The notes beneath the pieces were generated by a model, which saw nothing but the letters and a program-made list of their open reading frames with translations, was not told where the DNA came from and ran no database searches. DNA of 64,000 bases from Gracilaria vermiculophylla (lineage: Eukaryota; Rhodophyta; Florideophyceae; Gracilariales; Gracilariaceae): the NCBI GenBank assembly GCA_019155205.2, contig JAHNZQ020000308.1, positions 4,157,858-4,221,857 of the forward strand. The letters run 5' to 3'. Shown here piece after piece: positions 20,029-63,716 of the stretch. Numbering within the stretch: the first letter of the stretch is position 1; every line of letters begins with the position of its first letter. Position numbers and translations under genes: made by a program.

Positions 20029-20259
20029 CCCCCCCCGCCCCTCGCCCCNNNNNNNNNNNNNNNNNNNNNNNNNNNNNNNNNNNNNNNNNNNNNNNNNNNN
20101 NNNNNNNNNNNNNNNNNNNNNNNNNNNNNNNNNNNNNNNNNNNNNNNNGATTTCCGCATCTCCTAGAGCTGGAGAACGACTCTCAATGAAAGTGGCGGAT
20201 AGCCATCGCTGCATCCGTTAAGGTATGAACTTTGGTTTGAAAAATGTGCAGTGAGCTGC

Positions 20260-35125: not shown

Positions 35126-35225
35126 NNNNNNNNNNNNNNNNNNNNNNNNNNNNNNNNNNNNNNNNNNNNNNNNNNNNNNNNNNNNNNNNNNNNNNNNNNN
35201 NNNNNNNNNNNNNNNNNNNNNNNNN
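35126..35225. other. Assembly gap (100 N)
   Basis: Exactly 100 N between a CTATACTAT-rich stretch and a (GA)n tract. Confidence 0.99.
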
Positions 35226-45960: not shown

Positions 45961-46133
45961 CGGCGGGAGTGGAGGGCGGGCGGCGAAAAGCGGCGCGACT
46001 TTGGGCNNNNNNNNNNNNNNNNNNNNNNNNNNNNNNNNNNNNNNNNNNNNNNNNNNNNNNNNNNNNNNNNNNNNNNNNNNNNNNNNNNNNNNNNNNNNNN
46101 NNNNNNGGGGGGGGGGGGGGGGGGGGGGGGGGG

Positions 46134-46171
<38 letters not shown>

Positions 46172-46231
46172 CGGGGGGGGGGGGGCGGCGGGAGTGGAGG
46201 GCGGGCGGCGAAAAGCGGCGCGAATTTGGGC
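45961..46231 (+). repeat. 46-bp direct repeat on both sides of the assembly gap
   Basis: Positions 45961-46006 and 46186-46231 are identical except for one base (C versus A in GCGA[C/A]TTTGGGC). The left copy touches the gap; the right copy follows the G tract after it. It may be a real tandem duplication or an unmerged contig overlap. Confidence 0.9.
46007..46106. other. Assembly gap (100 N)
   Basis: Exactly 100 N, followed at once by an about 79-nt tract of G broken by only two C bases. Confidence 0.99.
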
Positions 46232-46875
46232 AAAAACTGGGGCGGCGGGAAGAGCGCGCGGCGGGGGCGCGGGCGGCTGCGGCGGCTGCGGCGGTGGCGG
46301 CGGCTGCGGCGGTGGCGGCGGCAGCGTGGCGCGCGCGGGCGGGGGCGCGGGCGGGGGCGCGGGCGGGGGCGCGGGCGCGCGGCGCGTGCGCGGCGCGCGG
46401 CGCGCGGCGCGCGGCGCGCGGCGGCGCGGCACGCGCGAGCGCGCGCGCGGCGACGCACAGGCGCGCGCGCGCGCGGCACGGCGGCGGCGCGCGCGCGCAT
46501 CCGCCACCGTTGGCGGCGCGGCGTGGCGCGCGCTGCCCGACAAAATCATGTTTAAACGGCCGGACGCGCCTCCGCCGCGCGCTGCCCCGCGCCGCGTCGG
46601 CGCGCGCCCCCCCCGCCGCCCGCCGCCGCCGCCGCCGCCGCGCCCGGCGCGCGCCGCCACGGGCGCGCGCGCCGGGGCCGCCGGTAAGCGCAAAATCAGT
46701 TCCGCGTTAGTCGATATGCGCGCGCGTTCCACCGCGCGCGTCCAACCGCGTGCCGTCGCGCCGTCGCGCGCGCCCCGCCGCTCGTACCACATACCGCGCG
46801 CGCGCTGCCGCGCTGTGCCGCGCGCCGCGCGCCGCCTGCCACTTACCCGTGCCACGCGCTCTCCGCCGCGCGCGC

Positions 46876-46952
<77 letters not shown>

Positions 46953-46962
46953 ACCCCCCACC
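46232..46962. other. GC-extreme spacer and poly-C leader
   Basis: CpG-dense sequence with GGGGGC-type repeats (46340-46380) and no supported gene. A 74-nt uninterrupted C run at 46879-46952 ends 10 nt before the zinc-finger start codon at 46963. Confidence 0.7.
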
Positions 46963-47462
46963 ATGTCCGACCTCATGGCCTCCGCCTTCCAAAGCTTCCT
47001 CCATCACCGCCGCGAGCTCCCTCCACACCGCCCCCCCGCCCCGCCCCCCCCCTCGCTCCCCTTCCCCCCCCTCAAGCTCCCCGTGCGCCTGCTGCACGAC
47101 TCGCCGCCGCCCGCCAAGCGCATGCGCACGTCCACCCCCTCCATGTCCACCCTGTCGCTGCCATCGCCGCCGCCGCTCCCCCCCCCCCCTCCGCTTCCGT
47201 CGCTGCTCTCGTCGCCCCCACTACCACCGCCACCACCGCCGCGCGCCCCCCCCGCCGCCGCCGCCGCCGCTGCCGCCGCTGCCGCCGCCCGCCCGCCGCT
47301 CGTGTCCTCCGTGTCCATGCTCGCGCACGCGCCCTTCCTGCCGCCGCCGCCGCCGCACGCGCCGCCGTGCGCGCCGCTGCAGCCGCTGCAGCCGCTGCAG
47401 CCGCTGCGGCCGCGCGCCGATCGCGCCCCGCTGCGCGCGCACGGCGCGTACGTGCCGCTGCT

Positions 47463-47506
<44 letters not shown>

Positions 47507-47685
47507 TGTCGCCGCTGTCGCCGTCGCCGACGCCCACGTCTACCACGTCCACGCCCACTCCGTCGCCGCGCGCCCCGTACGCCGCCGCGTGCACCGTCAG
47601 CACGGCGGCGCCCGCCGCCGTGGCGCCCGCCACGCTGCGCGCCGCCGCGCCGCGCCGCACGCCCGCCGTCAAGCGCGCGCACCAA

Positions 47686-47717
<32 letters not shown>

Positions 47718-48240
47718 GCCGCACGCGGCGCCGGCCGACGCGTCGGCGCACAGCGGCTCGCTGTCGTCGTCGGTGACGCACGTGCAGGCGCACGAGTGCG
47801 CGCACTGCCAGCGCACGTTTGGCTGCGAGGCGCAGCTGGAGCAGCACGTGAAGCGCGCGCACCTGCGCCCCTACGCGTGCCGCATCGTCGGCTGCGCCGC
47901 CGCGTTCAGCAAGCAGAACCACCTGTCGCGCCACATCCGCATCGTGCACAACAAGGAGCGCCCGTTTGCGTGCACGCAGCCCGGCTGCTCCAGCCGCTTT
48001 GGCAGCAAGAGCCACCTGGGCGACCACACGCGCGCCGTGCACATGCGCCTGCGCAACTTCAAGTGCACCATCTGCGACGCCAGCTGGAGCAAGCGCTTCA
48101 ACCTGGAGAAGCACATCCGCATCCGCCACCTGGGCGAGAAGCCCTTCCGCTGCTCGCTGTGCTCGCTGTCGTTTGGCACGCGCTCGCATGTTTCGCGCCA
48201 CGAGGCCAAGGTGCACAAGCGCCCCCCGCCGCCCAAGTGA
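46963..48240 (+). CDS. Five-finger C2H2 zinc-finger protein
   Basis: 425-aa probable nucleic-acid-binding protein. Residues 1-270 are low complexity (Pro, Ser, Ala runs, a Ser-Pro dipeptide run from a CCGTCG array) with a basic patch KRMR. Five consecutive C2H2 fingers end the protein: ECAHCQRTF..H, YACRIVGCAAAF..H, FACTQPGCSSRF..H, FKCTICDASW..H and FRCSLCSLSF..H. Fingers 2 and 3 have the C-x4-C spacing typical of TFIIIA-like and GLI/ZIC-like fingers; only one linker is close to the TGEKP type (LGEKP). Such arrays usually read 12-15 bp of DNA, though 5S-type RNA binding is also possible. The ATG at 46963 (CCACCATGT) follows a poly-C leader. Confidence 0.88.
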
Positions 48241-48282
48241 ACGATACTCAACTAGTACTAGAACACTAGTGCGGACGACGAC

Positions 48283-48317
48283 GTGGTGGTGGTGGTGGTG
48301 GTGGTGGTGGTGGTGGT
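48283..48317. repeat. (TGG)n microsatellite in the zinc-finger 3'UTR
   Basis: About 11 tandem GTG/TGG units starting 42 nt after the stop codon at 48240. Confidence 0.97.
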
Positions 48318-48846
48318 CGTCATCGTCAGAAAGTGCGCGAGTGAACAGTAAACGCACACACCCCAGACAAGAGCCTTTGCACGATGCGCTGCACGATGCG
48401 TTGCACGAGAGGGGAGGGAGGGGAGGGGGGTGCGCGCGATACATGGCGCGGCGAGCGCCGGCGGCGGAGGGGCGCGCGCGCCACCGGGAATGCGCGGCGG
48501 CGCGCTCACCACGCGCGCGCGCGTCGGTCGCGGCTGGCGCGCGCGGCTGGCGGCGCGCGGCAACGCGCCACACGTCGCGGCTGGCGCGGCGCGCGCGCGC
48601 CACGTCGCCGCCGTGCGCTGGCGCGCGCCCCGCGCGCTCGCGCGAGAGGCAGCGCGCGCCCGCGCGCCCGCGCGCCCGCCGCGCCCGCCGCGCCGCCGCG
48701 CCGCCGCCTGGCGCGCCGCCGTGCGTCGAGCGGCGCGCGCGCCGGTGCCGCGCTCCGGTTACAGCCGCATGTCGCGCGCTGGCGCGCCGCGCGCGCGCGC
48801 GCGCGCGCCGCGCTGTCCGTCGCCGCGCACGCGCGCGCGCGCTGCC

Positions 48847-48877
<31 letters not shown>

Positions 48878-49310
48878 TGCCGCCTTTTGCGGATAAACTC
48901 TTTGTGCGTCTCTCGCGAGAGCGCCGCCGCCGCTGCCGCCGCCGCCGCCACCGCCGCCGCCGCAGCCCCGCCGCCGCGCGCCCGGCCCGGCGCGGCGCGG
49001 CCTGGCCCGGCCCGGCCGCGCCCCCCCCCCCCCCGCCGCGCCCGCGCGCGCGCGAGCGCGCGCGATACCCTAACACGGCGCCACCCCGCCCCCCACCCCG
49101 CGACCCCTCCCGCTCGCGCACCAGTCGCGCGCCGGGCCCGCCGCCTCTCGCAGCGCGCCGCCACCCGCGCGCGCGCGCAGCATTTGCTCCGCGCGCTCGC
49201 GCATCGCGCGCAGCGCACGCTGACAGCGCGCACCGCGCGCGCGCACCACCCACCGCCTGACGCGCCGCGCCCGCCACACGCGCCGCCGCGCCCCCTCGCC
49301 GCCGCACCCC

Positions 49311-49352
<42 letters not shown>

Positions 49353-49824
49353 CGGAACGGCGCGGGCGTGCAGCGGCGTGCACGTGCATGCGCCGCAGCG
49401 CGTGGCGCCCCGCGCGCGCGCTGCCGCGCGCTGTAATCCGCGCGCGCGCGCGCGCGCGCGCCCCTCCGTCTTCCGCAGCGCGCGCAGTGCAGACTGTCGG
49501 CGCCGCGCTTACATGCGCCGCGCTGCCGCCGCCGCGGCGCGCGCGGCCCACCGCGCGCCGCGCCGCTGCGCTGCCGCCCCACGGCCGCTGCCGTCGCAGT
49601 GCAGCGCGCCGCCCTTGCGCGCGCGCTCAAAGCGGCGCGCCGCGTTGCTTGCGCCCCCCGCTGTGCCAGCGCTGCGCGCGCCCCTCCGTGTGGCCGACGC
49701 GCCTCACGTGGCCGCTGTGTGCAGCGCACATCACGTGTGCGTCCTCGCAAACGTGTGCGACGGCGCCAACGCGCGCAGCGTGGCCAATATGCCACGTGGC
49801 TGCGAACCACCTCATAGTTGTACC

Positions 49825-50040
49825 GCGTGGCCGACGCGCACTGCGTGGCCAACGCATGCTGCCTGGCTCACGTGTGCTGCGTGCCCAACGCGCACGGCGT
49901 GCCCAGCGCGCACGCGCACAGCATGGCTCGCGCGCGTGGCGTGGCTGCGCTGTGCCGCGCTGCGTGACGCTGCCGCCATGCACTGCGGCTGACGTGCGCT
50001 GCGTGGCCGACGCGCGCTGCGTGGCTGCGCTGTGCGGCCG
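49825..50040 (+). repeat. 18-bp degenerate minisatellite
   Basis: Units resembling GCGTGGCCGACGCGCACT repeat with 18-bp spacing at 49825, 49843, 49861, 49879, 49897, 49921 and 49939, and again at 50001 and 50019. Units differ by 1-5 bases. On the minus strand this gives a six-residue periodic frame (VGHAVR-like), which I do not regard as coding. Confidence 0.8.
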
Positions 50041-50538
50041 CCGCCGCCGCCGCCGCCGCCGCTGTGATCCGCGTGGCCGACGCGCCCGCCGTGGCAGCGC
50101 TGTGCCGCGCCCTGCGCACACGCGCCCCACGTGGCGCGGCAGCGCCGCCGCCAAATCTTCAGCCGCTCGGCCACTGCGCGCGCGCCGCTGCGCCACGGCG
50201 CGCGCGTGCCAGCGCAGCAAACGACGTCCGATCACCGCCCATGCGCGTGCGCTGGCAACGCGCGCGACGCAGTTCTGCGCACGCACCGCGCCCTGCCGCT
50301 TTTTATGCGTTTTGGCCAGCCGCACGCTGTGCCCCCGTCGCCCCCGCTCGTCTGCAACCCGCAACAGCAATCAGCACCTCCTCGCAACTCCTTACCCCCC
50401 CCCCCGCGCCCTCCGCCTTCGCTTTGGTCTTTATCCGTACGTCTGCTTTGTTCAAAGCTTTCCTACCTGCACCCCCGCTCCCGCCGCCTCGCTCTACCGC
50501 CCTCTCGTTTGCAACACCTTGCACACCACGATTTCACA

Positions 50539-51661
50539 ATGGTCTACAGCACTGCCGCCACCACCACCACCACAAACACCCTCGCCCCCGTCGTGCAGCC
50601 CCCAGCCGCCAGCCCCGACGCCACCCTCCCGTCCGCCCGCCCAACCTCCCCTGCCTCCGACCACTCTGCAATCGTCACCATGGCCGAGAAGCTCCAGATC
50701 TGCAACTTCTACGCCACGCTCAACAACGCCCCGTCCACCGCCGCCTTTAACAAGCTATGCAACACCATGCCCCTCGACGCCGCCGACACCTTCTCCGCCA
50801 CCTCCACTGCCACCACCACCCCCGTCACCCCGCTGTCGCCGCCCACCACCCCGCCGTGCACCCCCGCCCCCGCGCCGCCCGCCGACGCCCCGCCCGCCTG
50901 GCAGCCTTCGCCCGAAACCGCCGACGCCCAGCTGGCCGCCGTCCTGGCCGGCCTCTCCTACAACGGCGCCACCCCCACGTCCGTCGCCCACCTCATGCAA
51001 TTGCGCGCCTCGCAGAACGCCGCCGCGCAGCGCCAGCGCCTCGCGGAAGCCGACGCCAACCACCTCTATGACCAGCAGCAGCACCAATACATCGCCGCGC
51101 TGCACGCCGCGCGCTCCAACCTCCGCCGCGCCTTGCGCGCCCGCATTCGCGACGCAATCAAGCAGCGCTGTATCAAGCCCGCCGCCTTGCGAAAGCGCAC
51201 CTCCACCTCCGCCGCTTCGAAAGCCCCCGCCCCACACAAACCCGCCAAAACGCTTGCCAAGGCCACCACCGCCACCACCGCTGCCGCCGCCACGAGTGCC
51301 CACGCTGTTGTCGCCGCCGCCGCCGCCGCCGCCGCCCCCGCCGCCGCCCCCGCCGCCGCCCCCGCCGCCGTCACCACCTCCGCGCGCGCGCGCGACGCGC
51401 TCATGCCTGCGGTACCGACTCCGCCTGCAGCGGCCAATCTGTCGCTTGAAGAAAGAGTTCACCGCCTTTTTAGGACCCATCGCTTCATGCTCCGCGAGTC
51501 GGAAAAGGTACTGGCACACATGCATGTCACTCATCACGCCTACGTATCTCCTATTGTATCTGACGATGATATGGACGAGGACACCGACGGAGGCAGTGGC
51601 GGAGGTAGCGGCGGAGGTAGCGCAACGTCTGCACCCTCCAATTCACGCGCCGATGCTAATC

Positions 51662-51693
<32 letters not shown>

Positions 51694-51708
51694 AACGCTG
51701 CCGTTTAA
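50539..51708 (+). CDS. Low-complexity Ala/Thr/Pro-rich protein, unknown function
   Basis: 389-aa frame starting in a fair context (CACAATGG). Residues 1-45 are Thr/Pro/Ser-rich. A more complex block MAEKLQICNFYATLNNAPSTAAF (about 50-75) is followed by a Pro/Thr linker. A predicted helical, basic section (about 135-230; SVAHLMQLRASQNAAAQRQR and HAARSNLRRALRARIRDAIK) comes next, then Ala runs. A conserved-looking segment LEERVHRLFRTHRFMLRESEK (about 300) is followed by an acidic DDDMDEDTD patch, a Gly-Gly-Gly-Ser repeat and a poly-Ala tail. No family is recognised. The acidic patch and helices would suit a transcriptional regulator, but that is a guess. The complex segments argue for a real gene. 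Confidence 0.55.
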
Positions 51709-53909
51709 GCGCCGCCGCAATGCGTCCCACTGTCAATGCGGCCAGCGATCACCGTCTGCACGCTTCGCTCCACCGCTGTGCTTGTGCCCGACCATCTCTT
51801 GTGTCTCCAAGTTTTATCCCCGTTCTACATTGTATGCGTTATCGTTTCGAGACGGCTCAAACGTTCAGTTTCGGCGTTCTTGGAATTTTACTTGTCTGCG
51901 TTTGTTATCTGCTTCTAGTATTGGTGTCATGCCAATGCGTTACCTTGCGTGTGTTTGTTCGGCTTCTACAGTCTTTCTCAACGCCTTTGCGCGCTCAAAG
52001 TGTGCTTGCGCCTCTCGCCAGCTGCTTGCCGTTGTAAAGATGTCGGACCATTGTTGTTAGCATCCTTTCGTGCTTCTCAGTCAGCAAACGGTACTCGCTC
52101 GCACTTGGCAGTCACGAGGTCACTACCACCCCCTTGGACACCGCAATGTGCGTGTATCTCTGCAGACCGCTCACACGTCCCCCAAAGCGCCTCGTGTGCC
52201 CATCGACGGCCCACTCCTTCCCATGCGCCGCGCAGCGCTTCGCCTCCAATTGCAAAGCTCTCTGCAGAGAAAGCGATGGAAGAAACCATCGGAGGGACAC
52301 ATCGAGAAAAGGCGCCGCGCTCCAACAAGAGAGCGACAAAAAATGCCATTCGTGCGGGCTGCGCTTGCTCGCGGAAGGCGCGCTGTCGTTGGACTGGCGC
52401 CCGTTCGCACGCGCCGCTCCTGCGCCTTGTTACCGTTTGCATTTCGGTGCCACCTGCCGTCCTCCGCGGCCTGCCATGCCGCGCGATGCGCAGCGTTGCG
52501 CCGCAGCTACCACGTCTTTATCGGTCTGCGGTGGCCACCGCGCACCGCTGCGCGCCCCGGGCGCCCTTCACCTCGACGCGTCTGCCAAGCCGTCCCCCGT
52601 GTGCAGCGCTGCGCGGCTTTCTACGCGATTGGGGGGCTTCGCGCTCCACGCCGCGCATTGCTTGCAGACACCGTTGGAAAGGGCGGCCGAACGGCGCGCT
52701 CGCACCCGATGCTTGTGTTGTCCCCTCCCATCTTGTCCAGGCTCAGTGAGGTACGTGGGCTGACCAAACCATTGTGGAACGGCTCAGGCACAGACACAGC
52801 GCCAAGCCGCGTTCCACATCCCAGTTCACTTTGGCCACAAACCACCAACCAGAATTGAGTTGTACACGGTAAGCCGCCAACCCCCTCCATGTTCCAGCTC
52901 AACATCGGTAGGCCCCCGTGCGCTGCAACGGCGCACAGCGGGACACACGTAGCGATGCGCATCTATCTCCTTGTGCGCACAAACCTAAAGCGTCTCGCCC
53001 ACATCAGCTTGCGCCAGCCAGCTGTCCAACAAAAGCATGTCCCGCGTCGCTCTAACGCCCGCCAAGCACACCGACCGTGAGCGGCCGGTGTAAACCTTGC
53101 CAGTCGAGGCTAACCTCGAAACCAGAGCTGATGCGAGCGATATGAATGCTCGTCGCAGCTTTGGGCCACGAGGCCACGGGTTCGCCGCGCCCCTTGGCCC
53201 ATGGCCCGCACTTTCGCATATTATAGGGCTCTGCAGACGCCATAAAGATGCTACTGCGTATCGAACGGCTATACCTTAGCTTGAGGGAAATGAACACAGA
53301 CGCATACTGTAAGACGAGATGCACGCCACAAGCGTTTGCCCCGTTAATCAGTCGTGCAACATTGGCACATTTCAGACTTGACGTCGCAAGACTCTAAAAT
53401 GTCCCATCCATTGGACGTGTCCATGCCCCCCTTCAACAGGTAGCGCGACGTCCGCGTCACACGCAAGAGGGCTGAGCTGGCTGCTGGAATGCAAAAAGCC
53501 CCAAAACCCCCCAGCCAGAGACTCGACCGCTTCCGCACAAAACTGCACGCCGGGAAAAAAAAGCAAAACCTACACAGTCAGGCCATTGCGCTCGGGCTCG
53601 GTTGCTTCGTATGGCGGCAGGCAACATGTGCGCCACCTGCTTCAAAACAGTGGCATCGATGCGGATTGGCATCACACGCCAGATATTTCCTGGTCCACAT
53701 AATGATAGGGTAGGTTCCACCTTGTCTCTGATGCTGAGCTGGTCTTTCTGAATTCATGGAGCCCAAATCCACAGCGAGGCACCGCCACCCACCAGCAGCG
53801 GAGCCTCTATGAACAAAAACATGTTGTTCGACTCCCATGAGGAACACCACTTTCAGTGGGATCACCAGTTGCCTCGCATGCTCCCTTCCACACCAGCCAT
53901 GTCCGCAGC
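51709..53909. other. Intergenic region without supported gene
   Basis: 2.2 kb of mixed GC. Overlapping frames of 200-266 codons at 51949-52858 have no recognised domain and lie in competing frames. The 3'UTRs of both flanking genes lie here. Confidence 0.45.
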
Positions 53910-55964
53910 TCATCCCCGGGGGACATGATTAAAGTCCCTTGCCATTTGTTCCGCACCAGACAACCACGCCAAAGCAGACGAGCACCCGACAGAGTCCACA
54001 CACATACCAATAGCAACGTAGGCTCCGTTCACTCTCAGGTCACTGATATCAGCAAGACCTCTGTCACCCAGCAACGCACGCCGCATCAAATGCGACATAC
54101 CACCTCGTCGCTCACTCTCTGCCACAATTTCTGCACGATCCTGGCTTACGTCTTGCATACTACTCTGCACACTCCACAGCTTTGTAGCAAGACTTCCAAG
54201 CACGTGATACGCCTTGACGCGAACGTTCCGCTGTTGCACAGAAAGCGTACAAAGCTCATCTGTGGTATTGGTTATTTGCTGCACAAGACGTTCCGCATCC
54301 TGAATGCCAGCAAAAGGTGCCTCGAAGCGACGCGCTATTGCACTGTTCAGCGCGAGGTCAGGTCCGACGGACATGCATCGCGCGACTGCGGTCGGGCATA
54401 TTGCAGGATCACCTTCCGCTCTCACGGGGCTGCGCACGGAGCCCTTGTGGGACGCAGGCAGGGCATCGTATTGCCCATCGTGCACGTCCCAGCCCCCGTC
54501 CATCTCGCCGGCGCATCGACGGAGCGCCTGCACTTTGCCCTGAATTTGCTCGGCATCGAGCTTGTGCAAACCGGCCGTGCCCGCGGCCCCGACACGCTCA
54601 AGAAGGGTTGCCAAATGACGGTAGTCTCCGTCGTGATGCCAGCGTCCGTCGCCCAAGAACCGAGTCTCCAAAGTCGGAACGTCTTCCCCATAGACGCATT
54701 TCCTCAGCTGAAGCCGCATCGGTTTGGTGCCAGCACCGTCTACTTTTTCAAGTGCGGATTTGGTGCCATTTACCATTTCAATCGCATGTTCTAACGCGGC
54801 TATTCTTGCGGTTTCGACTGAAAAATGAGAGGCGACGCAGAGAAGGTCGGCCTCTTTCAGGGGAGAGTGCAGTTGATCCCGTTTTCGAACAGCAATGGCG
54901 CAATAGAACAGATCGTGTTCACGCCTCTCTACGCCTTCTGGCTCCAGATCCAGTACCTCACACTGCACAGGTTCAAAACAGTCAAGCGGAAGCATCGGAG
55001 AACGCCCCCTTCTCCGCCTGGAGGCGACAAACGATAGTTGCTGCTTGAGCACGGCCCCAAGCTCCCTGGCGAGCGATTCTTGATACTGAGGAACTTCCAT
55101 GTTGGCATGCTGCACCGTTTTCATGTCGTGCAACAAGGTATGGCGCACAAACGAGTGGGCCGATGGCAGCGCAGAATCGAGGTATATGGCGGCGGCTACA
55201 GCCTCGTAGGCGTTTGCTAGCGCGTTGATGTCGGTATTGCACGTGAGGCCCGTGGCACTGTCCACGCCAGTGGGATCCAAACGACGGCGATGCGCTTGCG
55301 GAGGCAATGGCTTCTCCCATCTCAGCAGGGATTGGATACCGATACGTCTGGCAACAAAGGCCATTCCACGGTTGCCGACCAACGTTCGCATCAAAGCGGA
55401 AGGCTTGACGACGGGAATACACTGGGTGAATTGGTCCGTTGTTTGCCAGCGCAGCAGCTGCAAGGCGACGGAGGTGCCGACGACGCGATCTCCCAGGAGC
55501 TCCAAGGCGTTGGGCCCGAGCGATCTCTTCTTGAGATTCAAGGTGCGCTCTGCCCAGTTTGAAATGCTGGGGTGTGTGAGGGCGCGCAAGAGAAGCGGCC
55601 AGTTGCGAAAGTTGGCGACATGCCAGTCTCGAAGGACAGCGCGGAGGTGGAGGATGTCGGCATCAGTTGCCTGCATAACCTGACTGACATGGATGTCTGC
55701 AATGCGGCGAATTCCGAGAGCGGAGCGCATGTTGAGGAGGGCGCTGCGGGGCGCCAGCGCCAGACGGCGGGGGGGCGGTGGAGCGCGGTGGCGCCTCGAA
55801 CAGCCGGCAGCGCAAGGTGCCGACCGCGCCCGCGACGAACTGGGCAGTGCGCCTTTGCGCCGGTACCACGGTGGGTGCGGTGGCACACGGCGATCAACAC
55901 ACGTGTACACAACCGAATACCGAATAAATGCTGTAGTCGAACAATGAAGCCATCGTGTTGACAT
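53910..55964 (-). CDS. RNase III-domain protein, organelle type, partly degenerate active site
   Basis: 684 aa from ATG 55964, or 606 aa from ATG 55730. The longer form begins with about 78 Arg/Ser/Ala/Pro-rich residues with almost no acids, like a plastid or mitochondrial targeting peptide. The RNase III domain (about 105-260) shows LLLRALTHPSI, the signature NALELLGD (Glu155, Asp159) and ANAYEAVAAAIYLD. Compared with bacterial RNase III, the signature Glu40/Asp44 and the Glu of the second motif are kept, but the metal-binding Asp of ADxxEA is Asn, and the first signature Glu is Asn. Plant RNC1-type proteins and mitochondrial ribosomal protein L44 show similar decay and act in splicing or as ribosomal proteins. 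The last 350 residues are not recognised. Role in organelle RNA metabolism is inferred. Confidence 0.75.
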   Translation of the reverse strand: MSTRWLHCSTTAFIRYSVVYTCVDRRVPPHPPWYRRKGALPSSSRARSAPCAAGCSRRHRAPPPPRRLALAPRSALLNMRSALGIRRIADIHVSQVMQATDADILHLRAVLRDWHVANFRNWPLLLRALTHPSISNWAERTLNLKKRSLGPNALELLGDRVVGTSVALQLLRWQTTDQFTQCIPVVKPSALMRTLVGNRGMAFVARRIGIQSLLRWEKPLPPQAHRRRLDPTGVDSATGLTCNTDINALANAYEAVAAAIYLDSALPSAHSFVRHTLLHDMKTVQHANMEVPQYQESLARELGAVLKQQLSFVASRRRRGRSPMLPLDCFEPVQCEVLDLEPEGVERREHDLFYCAIAVRKRDQLHSPLKEADLLCVASHFSVETARIAALEHAIEMVNGTKSALEKVDGAGTKPMRLQLRKCVYGEDVPTLETRFLGDGRWHHDGDYRHLATLLERVGAAGTAGLHKLDAEQIQGKVQALRRCAGEMDGGWDVHDGQYDALPASHKGSVRSPVRAEGDPAICPTAVARCMSVGPDLALNSAIARRFEAPFAGIQDAERLVQQITNTTDELCTLSVQQRNVRVKAYHVLGSLATKLWSVQSSMQDVSQDRAEIVAESERRGGMSHLMRRALLGDRGLADISDLRVNGAYVAIGMCVDSVGCSSALAWLSGAEQMARDFNHVPRG

Positions 55965-58250
55965 GTACTTTTGGTTTAAACGGGGGTCCAATTGGTGTCT
56001 TTTGCTCAAGAAGCTCAACAACGTGGTTTCTGGGCACGCATGAAAGAGTTCGTTTGCTGGTGGGTGCGGCTAAAACGAGTCTCGCCTGCAGTCGCTGCCG
56101 TCGTCGCTCCGCGAGCACAAGCTGTGGACTCGGAAGCCGTTTTCTACGTGATGGAAACCCGCAGCAGGTTTGCTTCCTGCCAATGTTTTAAAACTGTTCA
56201 TAGTTCCGATATTCGTTGATCAGTAGTTTTACAAGAATCATTGGTTATTAAATGACCCAAGTATCTTGATTGTTGCAGCTACTTGAAATGGAGCAGTATA
56301 TTGAGAAACTGCATCTCTTGGTTGATGGCGATCAAGAAGAAAGTGGATACCACGCAGTAGTCAAGTGCTGAATTGCTCTTGTCATTTCTTGCAGTACCAG
56401 AGCTCCAGCAATATTGACCTCATACAGTATGAGGCCAATTGTCGTGTACACACTACTTGAGATGCTCCAGTCTAAACGAAAAAAAATTAGCTGCAGAAAA
56501 GATGAAGATAAACATATGAAAGTGTCAAAATAATAATGATAGAATCTTAAAAATCGACACAAACGGCTCGATCTTTTCGCCTGCTTTTGTTTCACAAAAT
56601 GGCGCGAATATTATGTTACAACAATTCTCGTAACGTATGATACACGCCAAGTAGCTATTGTGGATGATGTGTTTTCATAGCAAGCAAAACATAAAAAAGA
56701 CGCTGTGATTTTTCACAAATATATCTACTCTCAAAAGCAATGGTTTTAGAATAATTTGTTGTGCAATGATTCAGATGAGCCATTTGAGAAACAGACGGCG
56801 CAGGCTGATTTTCAGAATTTGACCTCATGCTTTACGTTGAGTTGCCATGATTTAGAAAGCTTGCTGCTGTGATTATAAGTTGCAAGTGGTTGGTGAAAAA
56901 TTAAAACATTTATGAATGTCTCAAGCGCAAAAAGTGGAGCAGTGGAAATTTGAACACTAATTTTGAGTTTTAAATGTATGAGAGGACTTGATGAATTTTG
57001 CGTCAGACGAAAAAACTTGTGACAAAGTGTTTATTACGTTGATGAGCTGGAAGACATTCGGGAAGGACTGGCGCTTGTGACGAGGCTGATCGGGGTGCGG
57101 TGAACGACGGAGCATATAGATGGAAGAAAAACGGTTTGGAATAATTTGAAATTCGCGGTTTAAATTCGGGGTTTAGGGGTTGAGCGCGCGCGTGCGACGG
57201 GTGCACTCGAGCAGCGGCAGACGACGTGTCTGAAAGGCGCGCGCGAGCCGCCGTGACGAGACATCAAAGTGGCATTTCGAGCGAGCGTCTTGCCAGGCAG
57301 CGCAGACGAGGTAGGCGGGGCGGGGCACGCGCGCCGGGAGCCGGGCTGCAGCCAGCGCAGGAGCAAACGGGCGCGACGAAGGCCGCGTGCGGTTGGCGCG
57401 CCCGTCGAGCTCCAGCGGTGGGCGCCGGCCGCTTTGTTGCCTTGGCGCTGCGCGCGCGCGCGCTCGTGAGCTGCGCGAGCTGCGGCAGCCGCGCGAGCTC
57501 GCGCGCTGCGCGCGCGCGCTGTCAGCCGCACGCCTCCGACGTTGCGAACAGCTTCCAGCGCGCGCGCGGGAGCACGGCCAGTTACGCCGGTCGCACGGCC
57601 TGCGCCCGCCGCGCGCGACGCCACGCAGCGGCGCGCCGATCGCGCGAGCGCGCGCGCGCACCGCCGTCGGGTCGGCGCCGCGCCGCCGACAGCCGCTCCG
57701 ACCGTAATTCAGCCGTCGCCTTCATAAAGTTAGTTTGCGCCAGTTGTTGCACACTAAGGGGGCGCGCGCTGGAGAGTGCTCCTTAGCGCGCCAGGCGCAC
57801 CACCTCACCGGCGCAGGGAGGGGCTTTCGCCAGTACGCGCAAACGGCGTCCACAGCGCACTTGCGATATGTAAACCCTCGAGCAAACGGCGGCGCTCCGG
57901 CCAATGAGCGCCGCGCGCGCCGCCGCCGTGCCGCCGCCCGCGCCAGGTGTGCGCCGCCCACTGGTCCAAGCTTGGCACGCGCCCATTCATGGCGCGCCAG
58001 CGAGCGCCGCGCGGCCACCCACAAACGGGTCCACACGTTCGCCGGCACGCGCGCGCGGCGGCGGGACACGCCGCCAGCAGTCGCTCCCCAGCGCCCCCCC
58101 CCTCCGCCCAGCGCAGCTCGCACGCCTTTGTCCTCCCCCCCCCCGCCCGCCGCGCGCGCCCTCCACCGCCATTCCCTCACTCGCCGACGCGCCCCCGCCC
58201 GCGTGCCGCGCCCCTGTCCCGCCCTTGCGCTCTGGCCTTCCACGGCCTGC
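55965..58250. other. Intergenic region: AT-rich then CpG-dense promoter side
   Basis: 55965-57170 is AT-rich with no supported gene. 57170-58250 is CpG-dense and contains the upstream region of the AdoMetDC fusion gene. Frames across it on both strands are short of any domain. Confidence 0.5.
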
Positions 58251-58262
58251 ATGACTGCTTGA
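58251..58262 (+). promoter_or_regulatory. Tiny uORF (Met-Thr-Ala-stop) in AdoMetDC leader
   Basis: ATGACTGCTTGA encodes three residues and lies 55 nt before the 51-codon uORF. Land-plant AdoMetDC mRNAs also carry a two- to three-codon tiny uORF, but there it overlaps the start of the small uORF by one base, which is not so here. Its presence in the mRNA depends on the unknown transcription start. Confidence 0.5.
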
Positions 58263-58317
58263 CTGCTTGACTGCCGTTTGTTTGACACGGCCCCAACCCG
58301 GTGATCGGCTAACGTCC

Positions 58318-58473
58318 ATGCCGCTCCGTTGTCGCGCCTCCGCTGCCGCTCCTCGCGCCTCTCCGCGTCTGCTTCAGTCTTCAGACCGCACCTTCGAAGA
58401 CACCTCCTTCTGGCTCGTCTTCCGTAAGTGGCGATCCGCCATATTCTCCGATTGCGAGAAGATCCCCGGATAA
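58318..58473 (+). CDS. Conserved regulatory uORF peptide of AdoMetDC mRNA (51 aa)
   Basis: Begins ATG 58318 and ends TAA 58473, 33 nt before the main start at 58507. The C-terminal part FEDTSFWLVFRKWRSAIFSD plus CEKIPG aligns without gaps to the end of the 50-54-aa uORF peptide of plant AdoMetDC (S-adenosylmethionine decarboxylase, AdoMetDC1/SAMDC) mRNAs: ED, then K at the same spacing, RSA, S, C and P match, and it stops at the same point. In plants this peptide stalls ribosomes when polyamines are high and so represses AdoMetDC translation. The same role is inferred here. A GTAAGT donor-like string at 58424 lies within it, so splicing could alter the leader. The alignment is from memory of the plant family. 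Confidence 0.8.
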   Translation: MPLRCRASAAAPRASPRLLQSSDRTFEDTSFWLVFRKWRSAIFSDCEKIPG

Positions 58474-58506
58474 CACTGGCCCCTGCCGCTTTCACACCAT
58501 CCGCAA

Positions 58507-60678
58507 ATGACTTCGTCCCCTAGTGTTCAACCTCCGTTCGAGGGCCCCGAGAAGAAGCTTTCCGTCCTTTTCTGCCCGCACCCAAATCATCCCTCCGCTT
58601 CCTTGCGCTCCATACCGCGTCCTCAAATCGACACCATTCTGCGTGCTGCATCCTGTTCTGTCTTGTCCGTGTGCCAAAATGCCCATTTTGATGCCTACCT
58701 CTTGTCCGAGTCTTCCTTATTTGTCAACGATCATGTGTTCACCATCAAGACGTGTGGCACCACCACGTTGCTCGATGCGCTGTCCCTCCTGTTTGACTCG
58801 GCTGCTGCGTTTAACCTCCTCCCCGAGTCGCTGTCCTTCTCGCGAGTGCGATACAGCTTTCCGCACGCGCAGATGTTCCCGCACGACTGCTTTGAAAATG
58901 AAGTTTCTTTCATCGACTGCGCCCTGCAGGCGTGCGCCATCAAGTACCACAAATACGTCCGAACGAGGTGCAACTGGCACTTGTACCATGCGCGCTTCGA
59001 GCACGCACACTGCCACGCGCGACAAGCGCACCGATCCACGCTGGACATCTATATGTTCGACCTGGACGAGCAGCGCATGTCAAACTTTTGCTTCCAGCAC
59101 CGTCAGCACCTCATCGGCACCGACAAGGCGCACGGCGTCACGGAGCAGAGCGGCGTGTCGCGCCTGCTGCACGACTGCGACGTCGTGGACGCCTTCAACT
59201 TTGAGCCGTGCGGCTACTCGATGAACGCGCTCAAGGCACGCACGTACTGCACGGTGCACGTGACGCCGGAGGCGGACGCCTCGTACGTGTCGTTCGAGGT
59301 CAGCGGCGAGCTGCACAGCATTTCGCTGCAGGTGGCCAAGGTCGTGCGCCTGTTCAGGCCCGCGTCGTTCACGCTGTCGCTGCTGGGCGACGCGCCGCAG
59401 GAGCACGAGCAGTGCAGCAGCGTGGCGAGGTTGCTGCAGGCGGACTTTGCGTGCGCGTGGCCGCTGGGCACGGTGCGCGCGGGCGACCTGCTGGGCTCCG
59501 TGTGCTCGTTCCGGGCGCGCGCGCGCGAGGGCGGCGCGGGCGACGGCGCGATGGGCGAGCGGGTGGACAGCGTGGCGCTGCGCGTGGGGAAGCAGTTTGG
59601 GGCGGTGGCGGTGGAGGAGGGCGTGTCGGGCGTGGAGCTGGCTGAGCAGGTGGCGTGCAGAAACGGCGGCGGCGGCGGCAGCGGCGGCGGCAGCGGCGGC
59701 GCGACGCTCATGGTGGACCTGTGCCGCGTGGAACGCGAGATGCGGGAAGTGGGCAGGGCGGTGGGGCGCGACGTGGAGCTGAGGTACCTGGTGAAAGTGA
59801 ACGGGGCTCGCGGAGTGCTGGCGGTGCTGAACGAGATCGGGGCGGCGTTTGAGGCGAGCGACGAGATGGACGTGATGGCGCTGGAGAGCGTCGGGGTTCA
59901 GCGAGAGAGAATTGTGCTGGCGTCGCCGGTGGTGCGTGAGGAGCTGATGGGCAGGGTGGGTGCGGTGGCGGTTTACGGCGGTGGGGCGGCGGTGGAGATG
60001 GCGGCGCGGCACGGGGTGTGCGTGGAGATTCGAGTGATCGATGGGATTGTGTCGGAGGTGGAACGGGTTCTCGGGGAGATTGGGGCGTGGGGGGCGCGCG
60101 TGGGAGGCGTGGGGTTTGACGGACGGGTTGAGCGGTCGGTTGCGCAGGGGGTGTTGAAGAGAGTTTGTGAGGCAGTGGGCGGGGGCGACGGGATAAGAGT
60201 TGTTGTGGGGGAGGTGGGCGACGGGACGGGCGCAGTGCGGGCGGAGGAGGTGGGGAAGATGGCGCGCGAGATACGTGGCGAGTGGGGGGGAGTGCGGGCG
60301 GTGGCGACGGTGGGGGTGCGCGTGGCGCGGGGGGCGGTGAGCGTGAGGGTGGAGGTTGTGGGACGGAAGCGGCGAGGCGATGCGACGCTGTACTACGTGA
60401 GCGACGGGGCGTACGGGGCGCTCAACGCGGTGATGATGGGCGGCGAGAAGGTGCGCGTGAGCGCGGGCGAGGGGCGCGCGGAGAGCGCGGTGGTGTTCGG
60501 GCCCACGTGCGACAGCGTGGACGTGGTGTGGAGCGGCGCGATGCGGCAGCTGCACGTGGGCCACGTGGTGGTGCTGGACGGCGTGTGCGACTTTGGCGGC
60601 GCCACGCGCTTCAATGGCTTTGGCGCGCACACGGCCGAGCTGTACTTGGTGCGCGCGCGAGGCGGGCGCGGGCGCTGA
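58507..60678 (+). CDS. S-adenosylmethionine decarboxylase fused to a degenerate ornithine-decarboxylase-like domain
   Basis: 723-aa fusion for polyamine synthesis. Residues 10-340 are AdoMetDC, the pyruvoyl enzyme making decarboxylated AdoMet for spermidine/spermine. All key elements are present: FEGPEKK, the self-cleavage site LSESS (Glu68/Ser69), KTCGTT (Cys83), PCGYSMN (Ser238), HVTPE (His251) and SYVSFE. A Gly/Ser linker (387-399) leads to an ODC/alanine-racemase-fold domain (400-715). It keeps the PLP Lys in YLVKVN (Lys430), YYVSDGAYG, GPTCD (Cys668) and RFNGFG. It lacks the HVGSG His (GFDGRV instead), the GGG phosphate loop (VVGEVGDG), EPGR (ATVGV) and the C-terminal Tyr. ODC activity is therefore unlikely; a regulatory role is inferred. 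Domain order is that of the Plasmodium AdoMetDC/ODC. Codons end mainly in C in the first half and G in the second. Confidence 0.92.
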   Translation: MTSSPSVQPPFEGPEKKLSVLFCPHPNHPSASLRSIPRPQIDTILRAASCSVLSVCQNAHFDAYLLSESSLFVNDHVFTIKTCGTTTLLDALSLLFDSAAAFNLLPESLSFSRVRYSFPHAQMFPHDCFENEVSFIDCALQACAIKYHKYVRTRCNWHLYHARFEHAHCHARQAHRSTLDIYMFDLDEQRMSNFCFQHRQHLIGTDKAHGVTEQSGVSRLLHDCDVVDAFNFEPCGYSMNALKARTYCTVHVTPEADASYVSFEVSGELHSISLQVAKVVRLFRPASFTLSLLGDAPQEHEQCSSVARLLQADFACAWPLGTVRAGDLLGSVCSFRARAREGGAGDGAMGERVDSVALRVGKQFGAVAVEEGVSGVELAEQVACRNGGGGGSGGGSGGATLMVDLCRVEREMREVGRAVGRDVELRYLVKVNGARGVLAVLNEIGAAFEASDEMDVMALESVGVQRERIVLASPVVREELMGRVGAVAVYGGGAAVEMAARHGVCVEIRVIDGIVSEVERVLGEIGAWGARVGGVGFDGRVERSVAQGVLKRVCEAVGGGDGIRVVVGEVGDGTGAVRAEEVGKMAREIRGEWGGVRAVATVGVRVARGAVSVRVEVVGRKRRGDATLYYVSDGAYGALNAVMMGGEKVRVSAGEGRAESAVVFGPTCDSVDVVWSGAMRQLHVGHVVVLDGVCDFGGATRFNGFGAHTAELYLVRARGGRGR

Positions 60679-61233
60679 GCGCCTTGACGTGGCACGCGGC
60701 GAAAGTGGTGGCATGGCCGCGGCCATCGCCGGCGGCGCGGAGGTTGTGGTGCTGAGTTTTGGCGTCTCGGAGACCAATACACACGACGGCTGAGCCTTAC
60801 GTGCGGCTTGGGCGGCGCAATGTGCTTGAGTGGCTTTAACGCGCGCGCGGCAGGGGCGGGCGCTGAGCGCCTCGACATGGCACGCGGCGAATGTGGTGGC
60901 ATGCGCGCGGCGATCGCTCGAGGAGTCAAGGCGGTGGTGCGGAGCTTTTGCGCCTCGCAGACCAACACACATGGCGGCTGAGCCGTGGGTGCGGTTTTGG
61001 CGGCGCCACGCGCTCGAGTGGCGCTGACGCGCGCGCGACGCGGGCGGGCGCTGAGCGCCTCGACGTCGCACGCGGCGACTGTGGTGCCGTGGGCGCGGCG
61101 ATGGCGCAAGGCGGCACGGGCGGGGCGACCGCACGTGGTGGCGTGGGCGCGGCCACCGCCCGTGGCGTCACGGCGGGGGTGCGCGCCTTTGGCGGCCGAG
61201 GGGCTTGGTGGACATGCACGGCCTGGGCGCGGG
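60670..61233 (+). repeat. 188-bp tandem repeat after the AdoMetDC-ODC gene
   Basis: The word GGGCGCTGAGCGCC recurs at 60670, 60858 and 61046, exactly 188 bp apart; the first copy contains the stop codon of the fusion gene. Units 1 and 2 align over the full 188 bp at roughly three quarters identity; unit 3 matches only over its first third. The end of the CDS (about 60590-60669) resembles the ends of the units (TTTGGCGGCGCCACGCGCT), so the array looks derived from the gene's 3' end. Confidence 0.85.
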
Positions 61234-61328
61234 GCGCATGGGCTGGAGGCACGTGCGCGCCTGTTTGCGGCGGCGCTGCACAGAGTGCTGCGCCTGCGCC
61301 GCGAGTGGCATTTATAGCATTGGTGGCG

Positions 61329-61388
61329 CAAATTACACTGTGCTCAACTGCGCGCCGCGCACGCAGTGGGACGTGGCGGTGTAATTTG
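61329..61388. promoter_or_regulatory. Perfect 10-bp inverted repeat with 40-bp loop
   Basis: CAAATTACAC at 61329-61338 is exactly mirrored as GTGTAATTTG at 61379-61388. It is an AT-rich pair within very GC-rich DNA, so it stands out. It may be paired protein-binding sites or a hairpin; function unknown. Confidence 0.6.
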
Positions 61389-62403
61389 AATCACACGGCG
61401 CGCGCGCTCCGCGCCGCGCCGCGAGCGCGCGTCCTCCGCCGCGCGGCGTCGTCGCCTGCCACCGCCGTCGGTGGCGCCTTTGCGCGCGCGCCGCCAAGCC
61501 GTCCCCGCGCGCTCGCGAGCCCGCGAGCCCGCGAGCCCGCGCGCCCGCGCGCCCGCGCGCCCGCGCGCCCCCTACGTGGGCCGCGCGCAGAGACGCTCGC
61601 GCCGTCAGTGTGCGCGCGCCGCTGACGCGCGCCGCTGCTGACCGCCTACGCGCCGCCCGCCCAGCGGCGCCGCGCGCGCGCGCATGACGTTATTCACGCG
61701 AGAAGCGCGCCGCGCGCGCCCGCCCCCCCCATCGAGACTCCCGCCGCCCGCTCCAAACTCTACGTTTCCCGCGATCGCCGCCGAAACGTACAAATCACCC
61801 GCGCGCCGCCCGCTCGCGGGAGTGCGTCTCGCTTGTCGCCCCGCCGCCGCGCGCCGCGCGCCGCCTTACGTAGCGCGCGCGCGCGCGCCAAGCCTTCGCC
61901 GCCAGCGCCACGCGCCGCCGCCGCCACCAGCGCCGCCAGCGCTCTCGCGAGCGCGCGGCCAGCCGCCAGCCGCCCGCCGCCCGCCGCCGCGCCAATCAGC
62001 CACGCGCCGCACGCGCCGCGCGCGTGGCTAAACCGCACCCCCCCCCCCCCCCCCCCCCCCGCCCCCGGCCCCCCCCCCCCCCCCCCCCCCCCGCGCCGGC
62101 CCCCTGTGGCCCGCGCCNNNNNNNNNNNNNNNNNNNNNNNNNNNNNNNNNNNNNNNNNNNNNNNNNNNNNNNNNNNNNNNNNNNNNNNNNNNNNNNNNNN
62201 NNNNNNNNNNNNNNNNNCGCCCCCCGCGCCCCCCCCCGCCGCCGCCCCCCCCCCCCCCCGCCCCCCCCCCCGCGCGCCCCCCCGGCCCCCCCCGCCCCCC
62301 CCCCTCCCCCCCGCCGTGCGGAGGCCGCGCCGTGCACTGTGCCGCCACCGTATAACGCCGTTCTCCGCGCCCCCCGTCTTGGGGCGGTGGGCCGTGTCCG
62401 TAC
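61389..62403. other. CpG-dense spacer with C tracts and a gap
   Basis: No supported gene. C-rich runs flank the gap on both sides (62037-62092 and 62218-62312). The right part is the upstream region of the zinc-finger gene. Confidence 0.6.
62118..62217. other. Assembly gap (100 N)
   Basis: Exactly 100 N within C-rich homopolymer sequence. Confidence 0.99.
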
Positions 62404-62649: not shown

Positions 62650-63631
62650 ATGCACCTATCAGCCGCAATGTCTCGCGATCCTAACGCTCGTGCACCACCC
62701 ACAGACTCGGACACCACCGCCCATCGCCCCCCGTCGTCCACCGCCGGGGCGCAGCAACCCCCCACACTTGCACCGCCGCTTCATCACCGCGCATCGCCGC
62801 CACCGCTGTCCATTCCGTCACCCGCCGCACTTCCCGCACGCTCAGTGTCTCAAGCGTTCAATGAGGGCAGGACACCTCACGCGCTCCCGTCTCCCCAGTG
62901 CGCAACGTACGGCACGCACGTCATGGCGCCGCAACCACCACCGCCGCCATTGCAGCCGACGTACGCGCCGCAGCCCAGTCCGTTGCAGCGACGCTACGCG
63001 CCGTCGTCGTCGCGCAGGGTTGCCATCAACTCGTTGCTCGATGAGAGGGCGCACGCGCACGGCGTGCACGCCTATCAACCAGCGCTGCCGCCCATCTCGT
63101 CGCACATGTCGCCCGCGCGCCCGCACGCTAACTTGTACAACAACCAACTACAAACCAACTGCGTCGCGCCGCACCTGCGCCGCCTGCATATCGGAAAGGA
63201 GAACCGCGTGCGCAAGTGCGGCGGCAAAGCGGGGCGCGTCATTCCGTGCCCGTACCGCGGCTGCCCCAAGACCTTTTCGCGCAACTCCAACTTGAAAGGT
63301 ACGTGAGCGAGAGCGCAGCGACCGCGCGGCGCCGCGACCAAGCTGCGGTTCTGACGCGCCTGTTGCGCCGTTTCTGCCCGCGCTGTGCGAATTGCGCGTG
63401 CGCAGTGCACATGAGGATTCACACGGGCACGTACCCGTTCGGGTGCCACCTGTGCGAGCGCAAGTTCATGTGGTCTTCCAGCCTGCACTGGCACCTCAAG
63501 TGGCACGAGAAGCAGGAGCCGCAGGGTGGCGGCAGCGGGCGCTCATGCAACTGCGCGTGCCCGATGCACGACCGCACGTCGCCGGTGTCGCAGGCGAGCA
63601 GCGACGGTGATGGCGCCGCCGCCGCCGGTGC

Positions 63632-63668
<37 letters not shown>

Positions 63669-63716
63669 GCCGCCGCTGCCGCCGCCGCCGCCGCCACAGG
63701 CAGTCCGACGCCGTAG
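62650..63716 (+). CDS. Two-finger C2H2 zinc-finger protein (one intron)
   Basis: Two exons, 62650-63298 and 63406-63716, give 319 aa. Residues 1-185 are Pro/Ser/His-rich and disordered. Finger 1 (CPYRGCPKTFSRNSNLKVHM then RIH) is split by the intron between Lys and Val; finger 2 is CHLCERKFMWSSSLHWHLKW followed by H. The inter-finger linker TGTYPFG is TGEKP-like. A Cys-rich motif SCNCACPMH and poly-Ala tail follow. The exon junction G|TG restores the finger exactly. ATG 62650 was chosen; ATG 62668 is an alternative. A TATA box at 62404 and an AATAAA at 63733 frame the gene. Probably a DNA-binding transcription factor. Confidence 0.85.
63299..63405 (+). other. Spliceosomal intron within finger 1
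   Basis: Donor GTACGTGAGC at 63299, acceptor GTGCGCAG ending 63405; 107 nt, phase 1. Without splicing, exon 1 reaches a stop within a few codons and finger 1 loses its His ligands. Confidence 0.85.

Follow-up and report, generated by a model that had tools for sequence, protein, structure and literature searches.

Ahead of an AdoMetDC-ODC fusion gene, in what is probably a red algal genome, lies a short upstream open reading frame (uORF) that recalls the leader peptide of plant AdoMetDC genes. The locus raises the question of whether this uORF is a polyamine-sensing leader of the plant kind, and what an ODC-like domain contributes when it is joined to AdoMetDC. That polyamines control the translation of plant AdoMetDC by way of a uORF is described in passages of PMC3426882, and ribosome stalling at high spermidine, in both mammals and plants, in passages of PMC6221367.

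The leader, the fusion gene and the host genome

The features below lie in the window, by which we mean the whole stretch of 64,000 nucleotides that was analysed.

58251..58262, plus strand: tiny uORF, ATG ACT GCT TGA (M-T-A-stop), read from the sequence
58318..58473, plus strand: 51-codon uORF (51 aa), ending in TAA (58471-58473) and sharing the frame of the main ORF
58390..58473, plus strand: C-terminal segment of that uORF, its last 27 codons and stop, matching the plant AdoMetDC uORF with a score of 38
58474..58506, plus strand: spacer from the uORF stop to the main ATG, 33 nt, 11 in-frame sense codons and no stop
58507..60678, plus strand: main ORF, AdoMetDC followed by an ODC-like domain, 723 aa in a single open frame
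58537..59415, plus strand: AdoMetDC domain, residues 11-303 (Pfam PF01536, 9.4e-82, and PDB alignments)
59665..59700, plus strand: Gly/Ser-rich linker, residues 387-398
59692..60666, plus strand: ODC-like domain, residues ~396-720 (Pfam PF02784, 1.6e-6; PF00278, 2.1e-9)

An earlier reading made from the sequence only had described a three-codon uORF 55 nt ahead of a 51-codon uORF that itself precedes AdoMetDC, and these positions proved correct: exactly 55 nt lie between the stop of the tiny uORF and the ATG at 58318 that follows it, and the main ORF starts at 58507. Both uORF starts carry T at -3, which is a weak context, and a weak start context permits leaky scanning. In the 806 nt scanned before the main ATG (57701-58506) there are five ATGs, the two uORF starts and three others at 57868, 57904 and 57989, which are relevant only if transcription starts upstream of them. 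Since the 51-codon uORF shares the frame of the main ORF, with 11 sense codons in between, readthrough of its TAA would lengthen AdoMetDC; no sign of such readthrough appeared in anything that we observed. The uORF also contains a hexamer resembling a splice donor (GTAAGT, 58424-58429). An intron starting there was considered and rejected, as the only AG dinucleotides before the main ATG are at 58427, within the donor itself, and at 58457 and 58460, giving introns shorter than 40 nt. No Rfam family reached its gathering score between 56001 and 61000.

The first part of the fusion has the marks of a eukaryotic AdoMetDC: the PF01536 domain match, the SESS processing site (Ser69), and the catalytic motifs KTCG (with Cys83), CGYSMN and TVHVTPE. 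It is the one AdoMetDC match in the assembly of 44.84 Mb and 27 contigs. Relatives of the fusion were absent from the viral contigs and phage records scanned.

Phycobilisome-linker domains were matched 11 times in the assembly, once on the scaffold that carries the window (C14), and light-harvesting complex (LHC) domains 12 times (one of these under the cut-off), with several on C14; in both counts some matches are repeats or exons of one gene. Rubisco was matched four times (C20, C17, C19 and C2). The copy on C20 (126 kb) is of the red type, with 8bdb as its nearest PDB chain at 680 bits, and the C17 copy resembles it by eye. The large subunit on C19 (202 kb; L046) is unlike the C20 copy in being nearest to PDB chains 7yk5, 5oya and 5n9z, which we take to be diatom entries, and this suggests that C19 is a foreign, diatom-like plastid contig. 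A red algal genome accompanied by some plastid DNA of foreign origin fits the assembly best, and the single AdoMetDC match speaks against any second eukaryotic nucleus that is at all complete. The suggestion that the DNA came from a red alga is thus supported at the level of the assembly by the phycobilisome linkers, LHC matches and red-type Rubisco, with the reservation that a second, diatom-like plastid contig is present as well. A separate observation concerns C17, where a low-GC region (3.11-3.16 Mb, 28 to 32% GC; L038, L043 and L036) holds an ORF with three phycobilisome-linker repeats and an rbcL that looks red-type. This suggests that plastid DNA was either joined to a nuclear scaffold of 5.2 Mb or inserted into it.

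Four gaps of 100 N (20049-20148, 35126-35225, 46007-46106 and 62118-62217) join separate contigs into the scaffold seen in the window, so neighborhoods across the gaps are uncertain. Two of these gaps bound the contig with the AdoMetDC gene (46107-62117). If that contig came from a green alga in the sample, its uORF would simply be the known green-lineage one, and an assembly with more than one kind of plastid Rubisco, hence impure, and a window built of joined contigs would both accommodate this. Against such an origin, the alpha-chain is slightly closer to 1jen (110.7 bits) than to 1mhm (98.6 bits), which we take to be the human and potato AdoMetDC structures; the tetranucleotide signatures of the other four contigs of the window agree at 0.74 to 0.86; AdoMetDC is matched once in the assembly; and the scaffold bears phycobilisome-linker and LHC matches. 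We regard a green algal contig as highly improbable.

Two further genes were noted in the window. The AdoMetDC contig also carries, on the minus strand at 53910-56021, a 703-aa frame with a ribonuclease III domain (PF14622, 1.2e-9; PF00636, 3.8e-9). Beyond the last gap, at 62660-63716 on the plus strand, an apparent zinc-finger gene was recognized by eye (CPYRGCPKTFSRNSNLKG.. and then ..MRIHTGTYPFGCHLCERKF), with a probable intron of ~110 nt (GTACGT..GCAG) from ~63299.

Likeness of the uORF to the plant leader peptide

The last 27 residues of the uORF, TFEDTSFWLVFRKWRSAIFSDCEKIPG, align without a gap, up to the stop, with SIEDVRPNGGIKKFRSAAYSNCARKPS from what we take to be the Arabidopsis SAMDC1 uORF, the one plant sequence on which the comparison is based. 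Nine of the 27 positions are identical (ED, K, R-S-A, S, C and P), in register with the stop codon, just as the sequence-only reading had described them. The full Arabidopsis peptide was recognized by Pfam family PF08132 at 2.9e-33. The N-terminal half of the algal uORF, which begins with an Arg/Ser/Ala-rich stretch, is unlike the plant peptide. The functional weight of the plant peptide lies in its C terminus, and it is at this functionally important end that the algal uORF, judged by its residues, resembles it.

The alignment has a BLOSUM62 score of 38. This score was reached in no shuffle, whether of the last 27 residues (200,000) or of the entire uORF (200,000), and by no random peptide of leader composition (500,000); in an unanchored local test, none of 3,000 shuffles matched the score of the uORF. 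Exact calculation gave P values per C terminus of 8.1e-7, 2.1e-7 and 4.2e-7 for three compositions. The likeness is therefore above chance in the shuffled-sequence comparison by which the earlier reading had proposed to judge it (0/200,000; P of 2 to 8e-7). Real reading frames gave the same picture. Across 4,320 stop-ended frames, drawn from the window together with 20 stretches sampled from its genome (214,117 non-N bases, 3 of the 20 stretches being wholly N), the uORF ranked first and was the only one to score 38, the runner-up scoring 18; it likewise ranked first among 1,464 frames when an ATG was required.

Extrapolated to the genome, there are ~912,000 stop-ended frames, in which up to ~0.7 equally good matches would be expected by chance, and so the position of the uORF just upstream of the sole AdoMetDC match carries much weight. 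That expectation is one of several points that would suit a frame that is open merely by chance, or what is left of an N-terminal presequence. The Arg/Ser/Ala-rich beginning would fit a presequence, as would a uORF that lies in the main frame, closed by one TAA and separated from the main ORF by 11 sense codons, and codon usage showed no preference for the uORF frame. But with five ATGs in the 806 nt before the main one, the probability of finding such a match by chance at AdoMetDC is ~1e-6, and we consider either origin very unlikely.

The family profile does not extend to the algal peptide. PF08132 gave no match to the uORF even at E ≤ 10, and across the genome its sole match at E ≤ 10 lay on C4 (15.5 bits, profile positions 2-18). 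As a control, the 27-residue Arabidopsis segment alone was matched at 2.2e-17, which indicates that the red algal segment is truly divergent. A six-frame search of the genome with the plant segment, run without a positive control, returned nothing. Upstream of the second ODC homologue of this genome, described below, the best score for a similar peptide was -11 (ORFs of at least 20 aa, 900 nt scanned). Given the PF08132 miss and the lack of a codon-frame signal, we do not file the uORF as a member of that family.

In land plants a tiny uORF overlaps the main AdoMetDC uORF by one base. The plant uORFs form homology group 3 (PF08132), for which Ivanov et al. 2010 is reportedly a key paper. The algal leader has in common with them a 51-codon uORF that by genomic position lies upstream of the AdoMetDC coding region, a preceding tiny uORF, and a C-terminal ED..K..RSA..S.C..P followed in register by the stop. 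It differs in the N-terminal half of the peptide, in escaping PF08132, in having a fusion as its main ORF and in a host that is probably a red alga; moreover, its tiny uORF does not overlap but lies 55 nt away. The comparison with land plants made in the sequence-only reading therefore holds for the order of tiny uORF, 51-codon uORF and AdoMetDC, but not for the overlap, and the family is not confined to land plants, as passages of PMC2075485 trace the group 3 (AdoMetDC) uORFs to the green algae Ulva and Chlamydomonas. Passages of a review of microalgal polyamines (PMC6356823) mention neither a red algal AdoMetDC uORF nor an AdoMetDC-ODC fusion, and the same is true of passages of a 2025 aminopropyltransferase study (PMC12803844), in which the term "uORF" does not occur.

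From its residues and position, the uORF appears to be a divergent relative or an analogue of the plant AdoMetDC uORF, and is probably functional. An unrelated uORF could have converged on similar polyamine-sensing residues, in which case it would work alike without being older than green plants. Nine identities in 27, a dissimilar N-terminal half, the PF08132 miss and a nonoverlapping tiny uORF are all compatible with convergence, while the common spacing to the stop, a P value of 2 to 8e-7 and the placement before the same gene speak against it; we think it unlikely. The likeness may nevertheless have arisen through convergence or gene transfer rather than through an age beyond that of green plants.

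Two ODC homologues with opposite residue losses

Four genes with these decarboxylase domains were found in the assembly: the fusion, L003, L004 and L005. L004 scores above NCBI's cut-off for diaminopimelate decarboxylase, the enzyme to which L005 also comes nearest in the PDB (9.7e-40 versus 5.5e-12 for ODC). This leaves one stand-alone gene found with ODC as its closest relative.

L003:1138-2388 on contig C9, minus strand: stand-alone ODC homologue, 416 aa, 2.7e-78 to mammalian ODC

L003 thus lies on a different scaffold from the fusion (C14). The tetranucleotide signature of its region agrees weakly with that of the AdoMetDC contig (0.39), a measure that seems to track GC content.

The ODC-like half of the fusion has the overall fold of an active ODC in prediction: its modeled structure is a fold-III decarboxylase (pLDDT 83.5, pTM 0.84) with PDB fold matches, from an alignment that consisted of ODC relatives. 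The cofactor site is another matter. In mouse numbering, the fused domain has H197D, S200V, E274T, R277V and Y389C, together with the conservative changes D88E and E94D and a Gly at 332. It keeps K69, Y323, C360 (Cys668 of the fusion), D361 and F397, and also D364. The middle of its barrel aligns unreliably, and R154, G235-237, D134 and K169 vary between alignments. Lacking H197, S200, E274, R277 and Y389, the fused domain probably cannot itself hold the cofactor. The sequence-only reading had called the gene an AdoMetDC-ODC fusion, which is right as to the fused ODC-like domain, though this ODC half is without its cofactor-site residues. In the Plasmodium bifunctional AdoMetDC/ODC, an N-terminal AdoMetDC is likewise followed by a C-terminal ODC domain. 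The loss of cofactor-site residues in the algal ODC half makes it improbable that the fusion is bifunctional in the manner of the Plasmodium enzyme; a further difference is that the assembly contains a separate ODC homologue.

That homologue, L003, has the opposite pattern. K69, D88, E94, R154, H197, S200, G235-237, E274, R277, Y389 and D361 are all kept, and so is K169. In this otherwise well-conserved ODC the changes are Y323S, C360L, a Leu in place of D332, and either Arg or a gap where F397 would be, so that of the cross-subunit residues of a self-sufficient ODC, Y323, C360 and F397 are missing and D361 is present. In known ODCs, Y323, C360, D361 and F397 act across the dimer interface, K69 and C360 coming from opposite subunits, and mutants of K69 and C360 can complement each other in mixed dimers. 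Contacts between the subunits include K169-D364 and D134-K294. The work on these cross-subunit residues and contacts is reportedly that of Tobias and Kahana, Osterman, Grishin, Almrud and their colleagues.

How unusual these losses are was judged from relatives. A first scan of prokaryote and viral sequences with L003 alone gave none, and tblastn found distant relatives in 174 plasmid and 6 phage records, of which four were used (L007-L010); an alignment (A1) used as the query brought in many more than tblastn. In the resulting set of 112 relatives, prokaryote genomes contribute 80 (the best of at least 566) and viral contigs 32. H197, S200, E274 and R277, all replaced in the fused domain, are invariant in 112 of 112, the prokaryote part being the best 80 of at least 566. 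C360, replaced in L003, is retained in 106 of 108 relatives whose sequence extends to this position, with 78/78 among the genome rows (from the best 80 of at least 566) and 28/30 among the viral ones; the genome set is biased here, as one of its two search patterns contained the C360 motif, while the viral patterns were free of it. The two exceptions, both viral (L141 and L142), are identical to each other in this region and have GPTLH for GPTCD, with Leu at C360, which makes the loss of C360 a rare event, though one not confined to L003.

The placement of the losses was evaluated over 16 positions, 12 on the cofactor side and 4 cross-subunit, leaving out D332, which is lost in both proteins. 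The probability that the three losses of L003 would all be cross-subunit by chance is 0.007. For the losses of the fused domain all to fall on the cofactor side, it is 0.18 with the five clear ones, 0.069 with seven (adding the conservative D88E and E94D) and 0.038 with eight. If D332 is counted, the probability for L003 lies between 0.002 and 0.022 and that for the fused domain between 0.14 and 0.40, according to the side to which D332 is assigned. Taken alone, the losses of the fused domain are compatible with chance, and the reciprocal pattern therefore rests mainly on L003.

By their residues, L003 and the fused domain resemble a naturally occurring counterpart of the complementing K69/C360 mutant pair, and they would most likely form an obligate heterodimer. 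The fused ODC half would then more likely be the obligate partner of a second ODC than a self-standing enzyme. Points against the pairing are the K69 kept by the fused domain, the unreliable alignment of the middle of its barrel, the viral C360 losses, and the place of L003 on another scaffold, with a weakly agreeing signature, in an assembly that has at least one foreign-looking contig. A different reading keeps the polyamine-sensing uORF and sees in the ODC-like domain a mere structural or regulatory remnant, for instance for dimerization or stability, with L003 acting as a homodimer or on another substrate. The fused domain is predicted to fold well, which would suit a scaffold; its losses fit chance placement (0.18 for the five clear ones); and Leu replaces C360 also in the viral L141 and L142, for which no partner is known. 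Yet the losses in the two proteins fall in opposite sets, those of L003 at a probability of 0.007, and L003 is without F397 and Y323 as well as C360. We find the remnant reading unlikely.

A proposed switch for both decarboxylases

The sequence match, its significance, the gene layout and the reciprocal residue pattern were directly established. Translation of the uORF, stalling by polyamines, dimerization and shared control are what we infer. If L003 and the fused domain are an obligate heterodimer, the uORF would gate both AdoMetDC and ODC. At high polyamine levels, the nascent ..KWRSAIFSDCEKIPG peptide would halt the ribosome at the TAA at 58471, and the stalled ribosome would prevent scanning to the AdoMetDC start 33 nt downstream; output of the fusion would drop, and ODC activity with it. 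At low levels, ribosomes would bypass or complete the uORF and some would arrive at 58507, so that AdoMetDC and the ODC partner domain are made and L003 can meet its partner. L003 would supply the cofactor half and the fused domain the partner residues of a heterodimer with one working ODC site, and the pair would allow putrescine and decarboxylated AdoMet both to be produced. ODC and AdoMetDC would thus sit in one complex under one translational switch, which the weak tiny uORF and the weak start of the main uORF might tune through leaky scanning.

To this explanation as a whole, a polyamine-stalling uORF peptide and an L003-fusion ODC heterodimer under one translational switch, we give slightly more credence than doubt. 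In a stronger form, neither protein would be active by itself: a single ODC active site would be divided over the two, of which one is joined to AdoMetDC, and an ancient polyamine-sensing uORF shared with green plants would set both committed steps of polyamine synthesis without antizyme; this we advance tentatively, with distinctly more doubt than credence. A search of the genome for antizyme (PF02100), run without a positive control, gave no match. The assembly does contain a homologue of agmatine deiminase, and ODC may therefore not be the sole route to putrescine.

Some known proteins offer partial parallels. The antizyme inhibitor AZIN has an ODC-like fold without ODC activity, and one structure of this kind, 3btn, is among the fold matches of the fused domain; AZIN binds antizyme, whereas the search here, which lacked a positive control, found no antizyme match. 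The nearest precedents in the same pathway come from trypanosomatids, according to passages of PMC2562514 and PMC6221367, in which AdoMetDC forms a heterodimer with a catalytically dead paralogue, prozyme, and DHS (DHSc/DHSp) is described as made up of two inactive paralogues. Compared with the pairs in those passages, the algal pair would differ in being an ODC and in having its dead partner fused to AdoMetDC.

The reciprocal losses provide a case, open to direct testing, of one enzyme split over two paralogues, and would represent a way to regulate ODC via the translation of AdoMetDC. If the uORF is homologous to that of plants, the AdoMetDC switch would predate the split between red and green algae, ranking with the oldest known switches of this peptide-coded, translational type, and the red algal sequence would point to the residues needed for the polyamine response, RSA..S.C near the stop.
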